Part shown: piece by piece, positions 126 to 4,870 of the stretch
How the letters are laid out: each line of letters opens with the position of its first letter
Numbering within the stretch: position 1 is the stretch's first letter
Assembly: GCF_014646075.1 (NCBI RefSeq)
Contig: NZ_BMMT01000003.1
Span: 248,001 to 312,000, forward strand
From: Saccharopolyspora thermophila
GTDB taxonomy: Bacteria; Actinomycetota; Actinomycetes; Mycobacteriales; Pseudonocardiaceae
DNA: 64,000 nt
Direction of reading: 5' to 3'
The notes under the pieces: model-generated
The model's database searches: none
The model's input: the letters and a program-made list of their open reading frames with translations, nothing else
What the model was told of the DNA's origin: nothing
Translations under genes and position numbers: made by a program

Positions 126-1535
126 ATGGCCCTCTTCAAGGCCCGCCGCAACCGCGGCACCCGCAGCGGAAGACCCGACAGCGTGCACCCGGTGGACGAA
201 GTGCTGCCACCGACCCGGATGCTCGCCTTCGGCGTCCAGCACGTCGCCGCGATGTACGCCGGTGTGGTGGCACCGCCCCTGATCGTCGGCGAGGCGATGG
301 GTCTGCCGCCGGTGCAGCTGACCCTCCTGATCGGGGCGAGCCTGTTCACCGCGGGCCTGGCCACCGTGCTCCAGTCGCTCGGGGTGTGGAAGATCGGCGC
401 GCGGCTGCCGTTCGTCAACGGCGTCACGTTCGGTTCCGTCGCCCCCATCCTGGCCATCGTCGCGCAGCAGGGCCAGCACAACGCGCTGTCTGTCGTCTAC
501 GGTTCGGTGCTGATCGCCGGGGTGCTGGCGTTCGTGGCGGCGCCGTACTTCTCCCGGCTGGTGCGGTTCTTTCCGCCCGTCGTCAACGGCACCGTCATCA
601 CGCTCATCGGCCTGTCGCTGATGCCGGTGGGCATCAGGTGGGTCGCCGGGCCGAACCCGGAGGCGCCGGACCACGCCGCGCCGGAGAAGATCGCGATCGG
701 CGCGCTGACGTTCGTGCTGGTGCTGCTGTTCAACCGGTTCCTCACGGGGTTCTGGAACCGCGTCGCGCTGCTCATCGGCCTCGTCGTGGGGACCCTGGTC
801 GCGTGGCCGGTGGGGTTGATCGACACCACGACCTTCGAGTCGGCGCCGGTGTTCAACCTGCCCACGCCGTTCGAGCTGGGCGCGCCGGTGTTCGACCTGA
901 CCGCGACGCTCTCCCTCTGCATCGTGATGCTGGTGGCGATGATGGAGAGCACGGCCGACATGATCGCGCTCGGCGAGATCGTCGACCGGCCGGCGGACGA
1001 GAAGACCATCGCGGCCGGGCTGCGCGCGGACGGCGCCGGGAGCGCCCTCAGCGCCGTGTTCGGCGGGTTCACCTGCAGCGCGTTCGCGCAGAACATCGGC
1101 CTGGTGGCGCTGACCCGGGTGCGCAGCCGCCACGTGGTGGCCACCGCCGGCGGCGTGCTGGTGCTGCTCGGGCTGTTCCCGGTGGTCGGGGCGGTCGTGT
1201 CGCTGGTGCCGCAGCCGGTGCTGGGCGGGGCCGCACTGGTGCTGTTCGGTTCGGTGGCCACCAGCGGCATCCGCACGCTCGGCAGGGCCGACCTGGGCGA
1301 CCCGTTTCACTCGCTGATCGTGGCGGGGGCGCTGGGCATCGGCATGATCCCGGTCGTCGCACCGCACTTCTACGAGCACTTCCCGGCCGCGCTGCGCACG
1401 GTCCTTGACTCGGGCATCAGCACCGGCTGCATCGCCGCCCTGCTGCTGAACCTGCTGTTCACCGCGATGCGCGGGCAGCGCTCCGAGCCGACCCCGGCGG
1501 TGGGCGGCGACACGGTGGCTCCGACGAATCCGTGA
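126..1535 (+). CDS. NCS2-family nucleobase (xanthine/uracil) permease
   Basis: This is a 469-aa polytopic membrane protein of the nucleobase:cation symporter-2 family, which imports purines or uracil with a cation. It is hydrophobic throughout, with about 12-14 predicted spans. The NCS2 signature is visible as AQNIGLVALT near residue 320, after the conserved segment MVAMMESTADMIALGE. The ATG follows CAGGAG at a 6-nt spacing. Substrate cannot be fixed from sequence. Xanthine/urate is favoured because a glyoxylate module and an IclR-type regulator lie within 8 kb, as in purine and allantoin catabolic clusters. The N-terminus (residues 1-30) is basic and cytosolic. The family is certain; the substrate is inferred. 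Confidence 0.9.
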   Translation: MALFKARRNRGTRSGRPDSVHPVDEVLPPTRMLAFGVQHVAAMYAGVVAPPLIVGEAMGLPPVQLTLLIGASLFTAGLATVLQSLGVWKIGARLPFVNGVTFGSVAPILAIVAQQGQHNALSVVYGSVLIAGVLAFVAAPYFSRLVRFFPPVVNGTVITLIGLSLMPVGIRWVAGPNPEAPDHAAPEKIAIGALTFVLVLLFNRFLTGFWNRVALLIGLVVGTLVAWPVGLIDTTTFESAPVFNLPTPFELGAPVFDLTATLSLCIVMLVAMMESTADMIALGEIVDRPADEKTIAAGLRADGAGSALSAVFGGFTCSAFAQNIGLVALTRVRSRHVVATAGGVLVLLGLFPVVGAVVSLVPQPVLGGAALVLFGSVATSGIRTLGRADLGDPFHSLIVAGALGIGMIPVVAPHFYEHFPAALRTVLDSGISTGCIAALLLNLLFTAMRGQRSEPTPAVGGDTVAPTNP

Positions 1536-1593
1536 CCGAGCAGGGAGGTGAAGCGCTTGGCGAGCACAAAGATCGTGGCTGCCGGACCAGGGC

Positions 1594-2061
1594 TTGAGGT
1601 ATATCAGCACCATACCCGTCGAACAGTGGACATCGGCCGTCGTCCCGGCCGTCGTGGGGATTGTCCTCATCGGCTCTGGCGTCTGGCGGTGGCATGCGCA
1701 GCGCCGGTTCGACCGCGTCGCCGTGCGCACGAACGCCCGGTATGTCCGCGACTACCACTCCGGCGCGCACTCGAGCCTTTCACATGACTCCCCTCTCCGG
1801 TATGCCTCCGTTCCGGAGCTGACGTTCCGCACCGCCGACGGCCGCGAGGTCACCACCATCGTCGTCGACTCCGCGCGCTCCGGTCCGCGCCCGCACCTGC
1901 ACGGCACGGACGTCCCGATCCGGTACGACCCGGCGAACCCGGAGCGCGTCGTGCTGGAGTCCGACCACACCGCCCCGCAGCTACGCTGGCCGCTGCTGAC
2001 CGGTGCCGGCGGGGTGCTGGCACTGGTCGTCGCCGGCGTGATCGTTTTCTGGCTTGGTTGA
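1594..2061 (+). CDS. DUF3592-type membrane protein
   Basis: This is a 155-aa protein with an N-terminal span (about residues 10-30, VVPAVVGIVLIGSGVW), an extracytoplasmic central domain and a C-terminal span (about 133-154). This architecture matches DUF3592 proteins, whose function is unknown. The central segment contains VPELTFRTADGREVTT and VPIRYDPANPERVVL, both typical of the family. The chosen start is a TTG and is weak. A good GGGAGGTG ribosome-binding sequence lies about 45 nt upstream in another frame, so the true start or an N-terminal sequencing error remains open. It sits 58 nt after the permease, with no evident functional link. Confidence 0.7.
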   Translation: MRYISTIPVEQWTSAVVPAVVGIVLIGSGVWRWHAQRRFDRVAVRTNARYVRDYHSGAHSSLSHDSPLRYASVPELTFRTADGREVTTIVVDSARSGPRPHLHGTDVPIRYDPANPERVVLESDHTAPQLRWPLLTGAGGVLALVVAGVIVFWLG

Positions 2062-2199
2062 GAGGAGATCCGCTCGCCCGCCGCCGCGCTGCCGCAAAAC
2101 TTCCTCGACCGCGCGTCCGGATCCAGGAACAATGATCAGTGACGCGGGGCGACCGGCTCCCGCGAACACCAGCACCGAGCGACAGGGGAGCATGGGCCG

Positions 2200-2400
2200 A
2201 TGGACCTTTCGAAGCTGTTCAGGATGGTCTCCCCGGCGAAGCACCACTCGTACGGGCACGACAGCAGCCACCGCCACCACCGCTGGCACTCCTCCAGCAG
2301 CGGGCACCGGCGCCGCTACTCCAGCAGCAGCGGCCACCGCCGCCGGTACCGCTCACGCAGCAGCAGCGGTGGTTACTACCGCCGCCGCAGCCACAGCTGA
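2200..2400 (+). CDS. Ser/His/Arg-rich 66-aa basic protein
   Basis: This predicted small protein begins MDLSKLF and is then almost entirely Ser, His, Arg, Gly and Tyr. It has two near-identical SSSSGHRRRY units and a YYRRRSHS end. An AGGGGAG ribosome-binding sequence lies about 10 nt before the ATG. The stop is 8 nt before the GTG proposed for the following kinase, suggesting translational coupling. No family is recognised. The composition suggests a nucleic-acid or anionic-polymer binder. The dense serines next to a kinase gene make it a possible kinase substrate, which is inference. An alternative is that this DNA encodes only a proline/glutamine-rich N-terminal extension of the kinase in the other frame. 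Confidence 0.5.
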   Translation: MDLSKLFRMVSPAKHHSYGHDSSHRHHRWHSSSSGHRRRYSSSSGHRRRYRSRSSSGGYYRRRSHS

Positions 2401-2408
2401 CCGCACCG

Positions 2409-3320
2409 GTGCTGATCGACTCGTTGAGCTCGTACTACTACGGCGAGCCGGACCAGGACTGGGGCGAACCGGGTCCGCTCCTGGCATCCGGCGAGGTGCT
2501 GGCCCCCGGGTACCGGGTCGTCGCGCACCTGCGCCGCGGTAGTCGGCTCGACGTCTACGACGTGTGGAGCGAGGAGCGGTCCTGCCGCTGCATCGCCAAG
2601 ACCGTCCGCCCGGAGCGGGCCGAGGACGCCCGCGCGGTGGGGTGGCTGCGCAACGAGGGCGTGCTGCTCACCCAGTTCACGCACCCGCACCTGGTGCGCG
2701 GCTACGAGATCGTGCAGACCGAGCCGCCGCGGCGCCCTGCCGTCATCACCGAGACGCTGCCCGGGCGCACGTTGAGCTACCTGATCGAGCAGCTCGGTCG
2801 GCTGCGCCCGATCGACACCGCCGTGCTGGGCATCCAGCTGTGCTCGGTGCTCGGCTACCTGCACCGCCGCGGCTGGGTGCACCTGGACGTCAAACCGTCC
2901 AATGTGGTCGAGATCGGCGGCCGGGCGGTGTTGCTGGACCTGAGCCTGGCCTGCCGGATCGGCGAACGCAGTTCGGCCGGCACCTTCGACTACCTGTCCC
3001 CGGAGCAGGCCGAGGGTGGCGTGATGACCCCGGCGGCGGACGTCTGGGGGCTCGGGATCACCTTGTACGAAGCCCTTTCCGGCACCACGCCGTGGGCGCA
3101 CGTCTCGCACCGCGAGCGCACCAGCAACGGCGGCCGCTACTACCCGCAGCGCACCAGCGTCGCGGCTCCGCTGCGCACGCACCGGCGGCTGCCCGCCGCG
3201 CTGTCGCGCACGGTCGACGCCTGCCTGGAACCGGACCCGACGTCGCGGCCGACGATCCAGGAGGTGGCCGAGCGGCTGATCAGCTGGTCCGGTATCGACC
3301 CGATCACCGCCGGCACCTGA
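2409..3320 (+). CDS. Small cytosolic serine/threonine protein kinase
   Basis: This is a 303-aa Hanks-type kinase. Visible motifs are the VAIK-type lysine in CIAKTVRPE (about K64), an alpha-C glutamate (about E84), the catalytic loop HLDVKPSN (about 159-165), DLS in place of DFG (D about 177), SPE in place of APE (about 197-199) and the DVWGLG aspartate (about 211). All catalytic residues are kept, so activity is likely. There is no transmembrane segment and no PASTA domain, unlike PknB. The start was set at a GTG just after the preceding small gene. An in-frame upstream start at 2139 would add a low-complexity Pro/Gln N-terminus. The 3' end converges with the next gene, leaving an 11-nt gap. 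Confidence 0.8.
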   Translation: MLIDSLSSYYYGEPDQDWGEPGPLLASGEVLAPGYRVVAHLRRGSRLDVYDVWSEERSCRCIAKTVRPERAEDARAVGWLRNEGVLLTQFTHPHLVRGYEIVQTEPPRRPAVITETLPGRTLSYLIEQLGRLRPIDTAVLGIQLCSVLGYLHRRGWVHLDVKPSNVVEIGGRAVLLDLSLACRIGERSSAGTFDYLSPEQAEGGVMTPAADVWGLGITLYEALSGTTPWAHVSHRERTSNGGRYYPQRTSVAAPLRTHRRLPAALSRTVDACLEPDPTSRPTIQEVAERLISWSGIDPITAGT

Positions 3321-3331
3321 GCAGCGGCCGG

Positions 3332-3658
3332 TCAGCGCCGGCGGCGGAAGGCCAGCGCGACGGCGACCGCGATCACGGCGACCGCGAGCTGACCGCCCCA
3401 GACGATCCGGTTGACGCTGACCGCCGGGTGCCAGGCCACCTTCCCGTCGGCGGACACCGAGAACGCCCCGACCGGCCGGGACACCACCCCGACGCCGCGC
3501 CCGTCGTCCCGCCCGCGGCGACCGCCGCCGACGCGGATGCTGGCGACCGGCAGCAGCGTGGTGTCGCCCTGCCGCACGGGCTCCCCGAAGACCTGGTGCT
3601 CCCGCACCTGCTCGGCGAGCCTGTCCAGGATGTCCGCGTGGTCCGACTTCTCCGTCAT
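3332..3658 (-). CDS. GerW/YtfJ-like small membrane protein
   Basis: This 108-aa protein resembles the GerW (YtfJ) sporulation-protein family: an N-terminal helix (ADILDRLAEQVREHQVFGEPV), a beta-rich core with ASIRVGGGRR and GVGVVSRPVGAFSV, then one C-terminal membrane span ending in RRRR. GerW-like proteins occur widely in actinomycetes, and their role outside Bacillus germination is unknown. The ATG is preceded by GGGGAAG. The C-terminal anchor places the core in the cytosol under the positive-inside rule. The gene follows the alcohol dehydrogenase on the same strand with a 108-nt gap. Confidence 0.7.
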   Translation of the reverse strand: MTEKSDHADILDRLAEQVREHQVFGEPVRQGDTTLLPVASIRVGGGRRGRDDGRGVGVVSRPVGAFSVSADGKVAWHPAVSVNRIVWGGQLAVAVIAVAVALAFRRRR

Positions 3659-3766
3659 GAAGCTTCCCCTCGTCTCGCCCGGAACTCCGACCGACGGTAG
3701 CCGCTGCCGCGGACCCGCGCCGCGCGATCGGCTTGTTGCCTGTCGAAGTCGGACCACGCGGCGTGC

Positions 3767-4870
3767 TCAGAACCGGATGACCTGACGCATGGCGCGCCCG
3801 GCGGACAGCTCGTCCATGGCGTGGTTGATGTCGTCGAGGTCGATCGTGCCCGAGACGAGCTGGTCCACCGGCAGCTTCCCGGCCCGCCACAGGTCCGCGT
3901 ACTGCGGGATGTCCTGGGCGGGCAGCCCGGACCCGAGGAACGAGCCGATGATCGTGCGGGTCTCGCTGACCAGCGCCAGCGGCGAGATGCTGCTGCGCGC
4001 CTCCGGCGACGCCAGGCCCACCGACACCGTCCGCCCGCCGGGTGCGGTCACCTCCACCGCGGTCTCGAAGGCCCGCGCGTTGCCGCTGGCCTCGACGACC
4101 ACCGCGGTCCGGTGCCCGGACTCCACCGCCTCCTCGGGGCTCAACGCCCTGGTCGCGCCGAGTTCGAGGCCGCGGGCCCGCTTGTCCGGCAGCGGGTCGA
4201 CCACCGTCACACTGCCCGCCCCCAAGGCGATCGCCACGAGCACCGCCGCCATGCCGACCCCGCCGACGCCGACGACCGTGACGTCCTCGCCCGGTTCCAG
4301 CCGGGCCGCGTTCTTCACCGCGCCACCGCCGGTGAGCACCGCGCATCCGAGCAGCGCGCCGACGTCCGGGGGCACGTCGTCGGCGATCGGCACCACCGAG
4401 TGCCGGTCCACCACGGCGTGGGTGGCGAAACCGGAGACGCCGCAGTGGTGGTGCACCTGCTCGCCGTTCCAGCTCAACCGCCGGGCACCGGACAGCAGCG
4501 TGCCCGCGCCGTTGGCCTCCCACCCCGGCGTGCACAGGACCCGGCCGCCGGCCCGACACGCGTCGCACTCCTCGCAGCGGGGCACGAAGTAGAGCACCAC
4601 CCGCTGGCCCTCGGCCAGGTCGGTGACGCCGGGCCCGGTCCGCACCACCCGACCGCACGCCTCGTGGCCCAGCAGCATCGGCACCGGGCGCACCCGGTTT
4701 CCGTCCACAACGGACAGATCAGAGTGACAGACCCCGGCGGCCTCCAGCTGGACCAGCAGCTCACCGGAGCCGGGCTCGTCGAGGTCGAGTTCGGTGACCG
4801 CGATCGGCTGGGTCTGCTGCCACGGCCCGGGCCGCCCGCACTCCTGCAACACCGCGCCCCTGATCTTCAT
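3767..4870 (-). CDS. Zinc-dependent alcohol dehydrogenase (MDR superfamily)
   Basis: This is a 367-aa medium-chain dehydrogenase that would oxidise an alcohol with NAD(P) or a related cofactor. The catalytic zinc ligand and context is GVCHSD (C48), followed by GHEACG (H69-E70). The structural zinc site has four cysteines at about 99, 102, 105 and 113 (CEECDACRAGGRVLC). The Rossmann motif is VVGVGGVGMAA. The start MKIRGAV follows AAGGAG at about 8 nt. An upstream ATG would add 11 residues without a better site. The substrate is unknown. The family includes NDMA-dependent and formaldehyde/aryl-alcohol enzymes. Confidence 0.85.
   Translation of the reverse strand: MKIRGAVLQECGRPGPWQQTQPIAVTELDLDEPGSGELLVQLEAAGVCHSDLSVVDGNRVRPVPMLLGHEACGRVVRTGPGVTDLAEGQRVVLYFVPRCEECDACRAGGRVLCTPGWEANGAGTLLSGARRLSWNGEQVHHHCGVSGFATHAVVDRHSVVPIADDVPPDVGALLGCAVLTGGGAVKNAARLEPGEDVTVVGVGGVGMAAVLVAIALGAGSVTVVDPLPDKRARGLELGATRALSPEEAVESGHRTAVVVEASGNARAFETAVEVTAPGGRTVSVGLASPEARSSISPLALVSETRTIIGSFLGSGLPAQDIPQYADLWRAGKLPVDQLVSGTIDLDDINHAMDELSAGRAMRQVIRF

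Follow-up and report, generated by a model that had tools for sequence, protein, structure and literature searches.

In the soil bacterium Saccharopolyspora thermophila, a gene for a small protein made up largely of serine, arginine and histidine lies immediately upstream of a protein kinase gene, and this arrangement raises the question of whether the small protein is a dedicated substrate of the kinase encoded behind it. To our knowledge, only a minority of bacterial Ser/Thr kinases have known substrates; a likely substrate gene placed 8 nt 5' of a kinase gene, in a pairing found in 31 genomes, would make kinase–substrate specificity directly testable, and the pair would also provide a test of phospho-control of a disordered bacterial protein. 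All coordinates refer to the window, the whole 64,000-nt stretch of DNA that was analysed, in which the following features concern us here:

1594-2061, + strand: gene for a DUF3592 membrane protein, between a permease gene and the pair
2105..2133, + strand: promoter-like element, TCGACC (2105-2110), 17-nt spacer and AACAAT (2128-2133), called on conservation alone
2184..2190, + strand: Shine-Dalgarno-like AGGGGAG of the small gene
2200..2400, + strand: small gene for the 66-aa Ser/Arg/His-repeat protein, stop codon at 2398-2400
2290..2349, + strand: tandem pair of exact SSSSGHRRRY copies within the small gene (residues 31-40 and 41-50)
2409..3320, + strand: kinase gene with GTG start, 303 aa, a single soluble Hanks-type domain
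3332-3658, - strand: convergent small gene, whose product begins MTEKSDHADILDRLAEQVREHQVFGEPV

The small gene and its surroundings

The geometry first proposed for this locus, a 66-aa SSSSGHRRRY-repeat protein ending 8 nt before a kinase, is borne out by the frame at 2200-2400, the stop at 2398-2400 and the GTG at 2409. The full translation on the + strand, MDLSKLFRMVSPAKHHSYGHDSSHRHHRWHSSSSGHRRRYSSSSGHRRRYRSRSSSGGYYRRRSHS, can be laid out as MDLSKLFRMVSPAKHHSYGH-DSSHRHHRWH-SSSSGHRRRY-SSSSGHRRRY-RSRSSSGGYY-RRRSHS and contains 10 His and 14 Arg residues. Its combined Ser, Arg and His fraction of 0.65 is reached by one of the 376 ORFs of at least 55 aa in the window, namely the small ORF itself, and the protein has no match in Pfam, NCBIfam or PADLOC. 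A chance ORF of a GC-rich genome is ruled out by codon-position and dN/dS tests. Over eight species pairs the small frame shows a pS of 0.273, a pN of 0.081 and a dN/dS of about 0.25, while the other two frames over the same gene give 1.24 and 1.52. When substitutions were permuted among columns, the pN/pS of 0.298 in the small frame compared with a shuffle mean of 0.885 ± 0.123, and none of the 500 trials yielded a value as low; one of the eight pairs (shandongensis/elongata), taken alone, displays no constraint on the small frame. Since purifying selection acts here at the amino-acid level, the small ORF represents a genuine gene.

When the upstream regions of 23 loci are aligned, a conserved TCGACC/TCGCAT ... 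ACAATG block emerges, whose flanks are not conserved. The block agrees with TTGACA/TATAAT at 8 of 12 positions, and its spacing is right for a principal-sigma promoter. A consensus scan returned no promoters and no terminators; the block lies too far from TTGACA/TATAAT for such a scan, so that the promoter call draws on conservation. If the block is a promoter, transcription would begin near 2139-2142. All 23 loci have a Shine-Dalgarno-like motif before the small ORF and only 2/23 have one before the kinase, while the distance from the small stop to the kinase start ranges across loci from 7 to 27 nt, measured to the nearest start codon as chosen by the analyst. Because the motif is regularly found before the small gene and rarely before the kinase, translation of the kinase is probably coupled to that of the small gene.

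The short spacers, and the fact that 21 of 23 loci lack the motif in front of the kinase, also favour a reading in which the small ORF serves chiefly as a translational leader, tuning kinase output by coupling, and its product is unimportant. We consider this very improbable in view of the amino-acid-level selection, the invariant residues at both ends of the protein described below and the lack of any Rfam element in 1500-3800; with no Rfam match, a structured leader RNA was likewise ruled out. The original prediction had also raised the prospect that the kinase is translated from an upstream GTG at 2139, in another frame. This start is not conserved: in S. soli, S. rosea, S. kobensis and S. 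rectivirgula a stop interrupts the kinase frame a short way 5' of the kinase, and a start at 2139 therefore cannot be general. It also overlaps the predicted start of transcription.

The immediate neighbours help to delimit the unit. Of 19 named loci, 17 have a gene related to the convergent one at 3332-3658 close to the kinase; we take the product of the convergent gene to be GerW/YtfJ-like, and it has no match in Pfam or NCBIfam. Within 4-kb flanks of the same 19 loci, the xanthine permease gene was found in 14 and the DUF3592 gene in none, so the latter is perhaps a recent gain. With a convergent gene on one side and a non-conserved one on the other, the transcription unit would most simply be bicistronic, comprising the two genes of the pair.

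Conservation of the pair and kinship of the kinase

The kinase and the small gene are exclusively linked and occur together. At a cut-off of at least 65% identity, a kinase ortholog is present in 23 of 61 relatives, the S. thermophila genome counted, and the small ORF lies directly 5' of the kinase in 23/23 of these loci. Across the Pseudonocardiaceae, a kinase ortholog (E <= 1e-85) is present in 31 of 390 genomes, and a profile search recovers the small protein (E <= 1e-3) in 30 of 390. In one genome (G259), a diverged small gene that the profile missed, VATVGSWFDSLRPAKRDHGSRSGSGGHKRHRSGSGSDHKRRNRSGDRSDSNRRHRSDS, was found 98 nt before the kinase match, which makes the pair complete in 31/31 genomes with a kinase ortholog; the loci inspected were those of the 23 close relatives, of G393-G397 and G399, of G398 and of G259. 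At profile level, none of the 390 family genomes encodes the small protein without the kinase. Among the 22 genomes of the genus, own included, G010 is the only one to lack the kinase ortholog, and the small protein is missing there too; its assembly is 92% complete. A search extended to 397 genomes of the order brought up no convincing member beyond the family: nine of its ten matches fall in the same family and the tenth (G627) is interrupted by a stop.

Conservation of the small frame, a check that the original prediction had called for, thus extends to every genome with a kinase ortholog, with one frameshifted copy. In S. spinosa NRRL 18395 (L009 / L063), 11 extra nucleotides in the repeats shift the small frame, which would consequently extend beyond the kinase start, and the kinase is intact; the frameshift is either a real loss or an assembly error.

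The protein encoded at 2409..3320 can be assigned by its motifs to the Hanks-type Ser/Thr kinases, with intact catalytic residues. Pfam Pkinase (PF00069) covers residues 36-288 (6.3e-32; 111.4 bits against a cut-off of 31.7), and K64, D160, D177 and E199, corresponding to the catalytic Lys, the HxD Asp, the DFG Asp and the APE Glu, are invariant in an alignment of 23 sequences (A1). HLDVKPSN stands for the usual HRD motif and DLSL for DFGx, together with GTFDYLSPE, and neither a transmembrane nor a sensor domain was found in the kinase. The structure model is moderate (pLDDT 76). The closest solved structure is that of PknB, with PDB 1o6y as top Foldseek match and 3f61 as top profile match; the best matches in these comparisons are PknB, Aurora, AMPK, PKC iota and Nek7, and no SRPK occurs among the matches listed. 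An anti-phage defence kinase was considered and set aside as unlikely, as the many PADLOC PD-T4-6/MAD6 models that match are read as generic kinase matches.

In a tree of 76 kinases, collected with two motif patterns, the 27 rows with a repeat protein form one clade (100/99), which adjoins same-genus kinases lying 3' of an MsbA-like ABC transporter gene. These ABC-linked sisters are 42-49% identical and have no repeat-protein gene upstream, which argues that the partner belongs to the repeat-protein kinase clade. They represent a second kinase–partner arrangement, seen in L159-L166 and L168-L171 (Saccharopolyspora and relatives), L080 (Nocardioides halotolerans) and L209. The 12 other kinase domains of the S. 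thermophila genome sit apart in the tree, and in a listing of their loci none has such a small gene at its start; one of these kinases lies 3' of the Ser/Thr-rich tail of another kinase.

The repeat-protein and ABC-linked groups together cluster with kinases from Nocardioides and Thermoleophilia (100/100), and the Nocardioides relatives have a low-complexity protein gene shortly 5' on the same strand. Of 394 genomes in the class (own genome counted), 26 have a related kinase, as do 156 of 294 Nocardioidaceae genomes. A partner survey of 154 loci, which took in part of the Nocardioidaceae matches, yielded 136 distinct low-complexity partners once nine partnerless loci were set aside and duplicates merged, and 127 distinct partners with an Asp run. 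The typical layout is a Sec-type signal peptide, judged by eye, followed by the Asp run and a Thr/Ser/Arg/Asn repeat tail. Short DLS-motif kinases regularly preceded by such a protein include L082-L111, L185-L208 and L211-L316 (Nocardioidaceae and others). That distant kinases, too, lie 3' of Ser/Thr-rich low-complexity genes suggests that partners of this kind are a recurrent feature of the kinase subfamily, with no sequence similarity between the Saccharopolyspora and Nocardioidaceae partner types.

The exported appearance of the Nocardioidaceae partners complicates a simple substrate model. Partners with Sec-type signals would leave the cytoplasm, while their kinases show no membrane segment, and one could thus suppose that a different modification acts on the partners of this subfamily, such as the O-glycosylation that exported proteins may receive, the Saccharopolyspora protein being a derived, non-exported member. 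With no signal peptide on the Saccharopolyspora protein and no sequence similarity to connect the partner types, we regard phosphorylation being replaced in this way as extremely improbable.

Possible roles of the small protein

The small protein has conserved ends and a drifting middle. In 21 of the 23 sequences (alignment A2, which omits the frameshifted S. spinosa copy and that of G014, one residue off S. indica), the N terminus reads [MV]DLSKLFkMVSPAKHH with P12, A13 and K14 invariant, and the C terminus is R-S-x-S or RRRSHS-like with R63, S64 and S66 invariant. Between them lies a variable count of (D/H/Y)SS(S/D)(G/D)HRRR(R/Y/H) units, whose number and wording differ from species to species. 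Orthologs span 51-82 aa and carry a net charge of +10 to +16 in all intact species copies. AlphaFold2 gives a helix at residues 3-10 and nothing else with confidence (mean pLDDT 56); the protein is accordingly predicted to be disordered outside its N-terminal helix.

The 22 intact small proteins contain 362 Ser residues and 2 Thr. Past residue 14 they hold 62 RRxS motifs, where shuffles that preserve composition give 29.2 ± 4.8; given the common ancestry of the repeats, these 62 are not independent events. Exclusive pairing, predicted disorder, Ser-only acceptors, RRxS motifs and a Leu at the DFG+1 position of the kinase are what a dedicated substrate would look like.

The last of these features concerns the choice between Ser and Thr. 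According to PMC3898841, the DFG+1 residue sets the preference for Ser or Thr in many kinases, Leu, Phe or Met pointing to Ser and Val, Ile or Thr to Thr, and Leu is unselective in the CMGC group. Leu occupies DFG+1 in 27/27 kinase rows of the repeat-protein clade, whose partners are practically Ser-only, and would fit this use of Ser. Most Nocardioidaceae kinases have Val or Ile at DFG+1 and partners richer in Thr, the median Ser/(Ser+Thr) being 0.52 for 5 Leu kinases and 0.37 for 129 Val/Ile kinases (p 0.010, with relatedness ignored). In a narrower set restricted to Asp-run partners p is 0.0025, but this set leaves out the low-Ser Leu kinases L206 and L207, which have identical partners. 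Seven Val/Ile kinases break the rule, with a partner Ser share of at least 0.6, and two kinases with Ala at DFG+1 have partners with a Ser share of 0.02-0.03. The latter are L284 and L290 (Nocardioidaceae), in which Ala follows DLS and the partners, with extreme TRD repeats, contain 31 and 40 Thr and 1 Ser each. The ABC-linked sisters frequently have Leu as well, and the residue therefore did not originate together with the partner. The agreement between DFG+1 and acceptor has the right direction and a weak effect, and we treat it as suggestive only.

Other observations count against the substrate reading. PKA reads Arg at -2/-3 through acidic residues; at the position that we take to be the PKA-type Arg-reading site, the kinase has KPSN, not KPEN, and acidic Arg-reading residues of the PKA type are absent. 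An electrostatic match between kinase and partner was sought at whole-domain level and not seen, the kinase being no more acidic than its ABC-linked sisters (-1.24 vs -1.15 per 100 aa). The small gene of S. rosea is short and irregular, and that of S. spinosa is frameshifted beside an intact kinase. The proposal of a dedicated substrate, with which work on this locus began, therefore keeps its support from a conserved and exclusive pairing (31/31), disorder and Ser-only RRxS-containing repeats, and loses some to the missing PKA-type residues, the ordinary charge of the kinase and the Sec-type signals of the Nocardioidaceae partners. The conserved pair of kinase and mini-protein is real, and a substrate role for the latter is plausible.

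We give about an even chance to the proposal that the small protein is a dedicated, charge-switchable substrate of the co-encoded kinase, and from it we infer co-transcription, phosphorylation, ligand and output as follows. One promoter 5' of 2200 would drive both genes; ribosomes would enter at the small gene and proceed to the kinase by coupled re-initiation, so that the two proteins would be produced in linked amounts. The small protein would be a soluble, cytosolic, intrinsically disordered chain, with a short amphipathic N-terminal segment as a likely docking or anchoring element. The Ser-Ser units between Arg/His clusters would be targets of multi-site phosphorylation by the kinase, which would convert the strongly positive chain (net +10 to +16) to a mixed or negative charge. 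This charge switch may alter its condensation or its binding to a polyanion, with RNA, DNA, polyphosphate and membrane as candidates, as with eukaryotic RS domains.

The main rival is a docking regulator or anchor. The N-terminal helix would dock on the kinase, and the small protein would serve as activator, scaffold or pseudosubstrate inhibitor, or would use its cationic repeats to bring the kinase to nucleic acid or membrane. The predicted helix at 3-10, the positive charge of each intact species copy and the better conservation of both ends (P12, A13, K14; R63, S64, S66) than of the drifting repeats speak for such a role, which accounts for the conserved ends better than for the repeats; by itself it leaves the maintained Ser-Ser units and the near-absence of Thr unexplained, and we place it on the unlikely side. 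The abundance of His and Arg, both of which persist in most orthologs, could instead mark an autonomous polyanion or metal binder that merely shares the operon with a kinase acting on other substrates. This is improbable, as the small protein was never seen without the kinase at profile level and His is nearly lost in some orthologs (2 His in H. lacisalsi).

Comparison with known systems

The preferred reading, that of a charge-switchable substrate, finds its closest parallel in the SR proteins, with their RS domains, and the kinases SRPK and CLK. Both cases have a disordered Ser/Arg-rich chain beside a Ser/Thr kinase, and the charge switch by multi-site phosphorylation is an obvious model for the bacterial pair also. 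To this extent the analogy drawn in the original prediction is apt, but it does not reach to homology. The small protein has no RNA recognition motif, in keeping with the lack of any Pfam or NCBIfam domain; its overall S+R fraction is 0.44-0.55 across orthologs, with few SR/RS dipeptides (1-8); and the kinase, among the matches listed, is nearest to PknB and not to SRPK. By these features the pair would not be classed with SR proteins and SRPK. An S+R fraction of 0.80 is attained in one 20-aa stretch of the S. thermophila protein and at least 0.70 in 8 of 22 orthologs, the threshold of at least 70% being the RS criterion given in the available part of PMC9479744 and the 20-aa length an assumption of the analyst. 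The same part of that paper reports S/R-rich low-complexity proteins in about 25-30% of archaea and bacteria, and the bacterial SR-related proteins that it highlights are DEAD-box helicases, with no mention there of a stand-alone mini-protein beside a kinase. Nor did the literature searched contain an account of a kinase paired with a Ser/Arg-repeat mini-protein.

A broader reading, drawn by analogy and held with more doubt than conviction, is that a bacterial SR-like switch evolved apart from splicing. A subfamily of short DLS-motif kinases of Actinobacteria would stand behind dedicated low-complexity phosphoacceptors, the Ser-Arg-His repeat of the Saccharopolyspora group would flip charge, binding or condensation upon multi-site phosphorylation, and the pair would offer a minimal two-gene RS-domain model. 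Bacteria, as far as we know, are without spliceosomal splicing; if true, this reading would provide a convergent, splicing-free counterpart of SR proteins and their kinases, and would give access to a far larger collection of kinases with low-complexity partners, given the 156 Nocardioidaceae genomes with a related kinase.

Among bacterial systems, the kinase shares its fold and catalytic motifs with mycobacterial PknB and other Hanks-type kinases, from which it differs in having no transmembrane or sensor domain and in carrying HLDVKPSN and DLS where those kinases have HRD and DFG. The proposed role of its partner recalls the small dedicated kinase substrate of the PknB/PknG-GarA(OdhI) system of Actinobacteria. 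GarA, according to PMC12321487, carries an FHA domain and is phosphorylated within an ETTS motif; the partner described here, unlike GarA, is a predicted disordered, Ser-only repeat that is co-encoded with its kinase.
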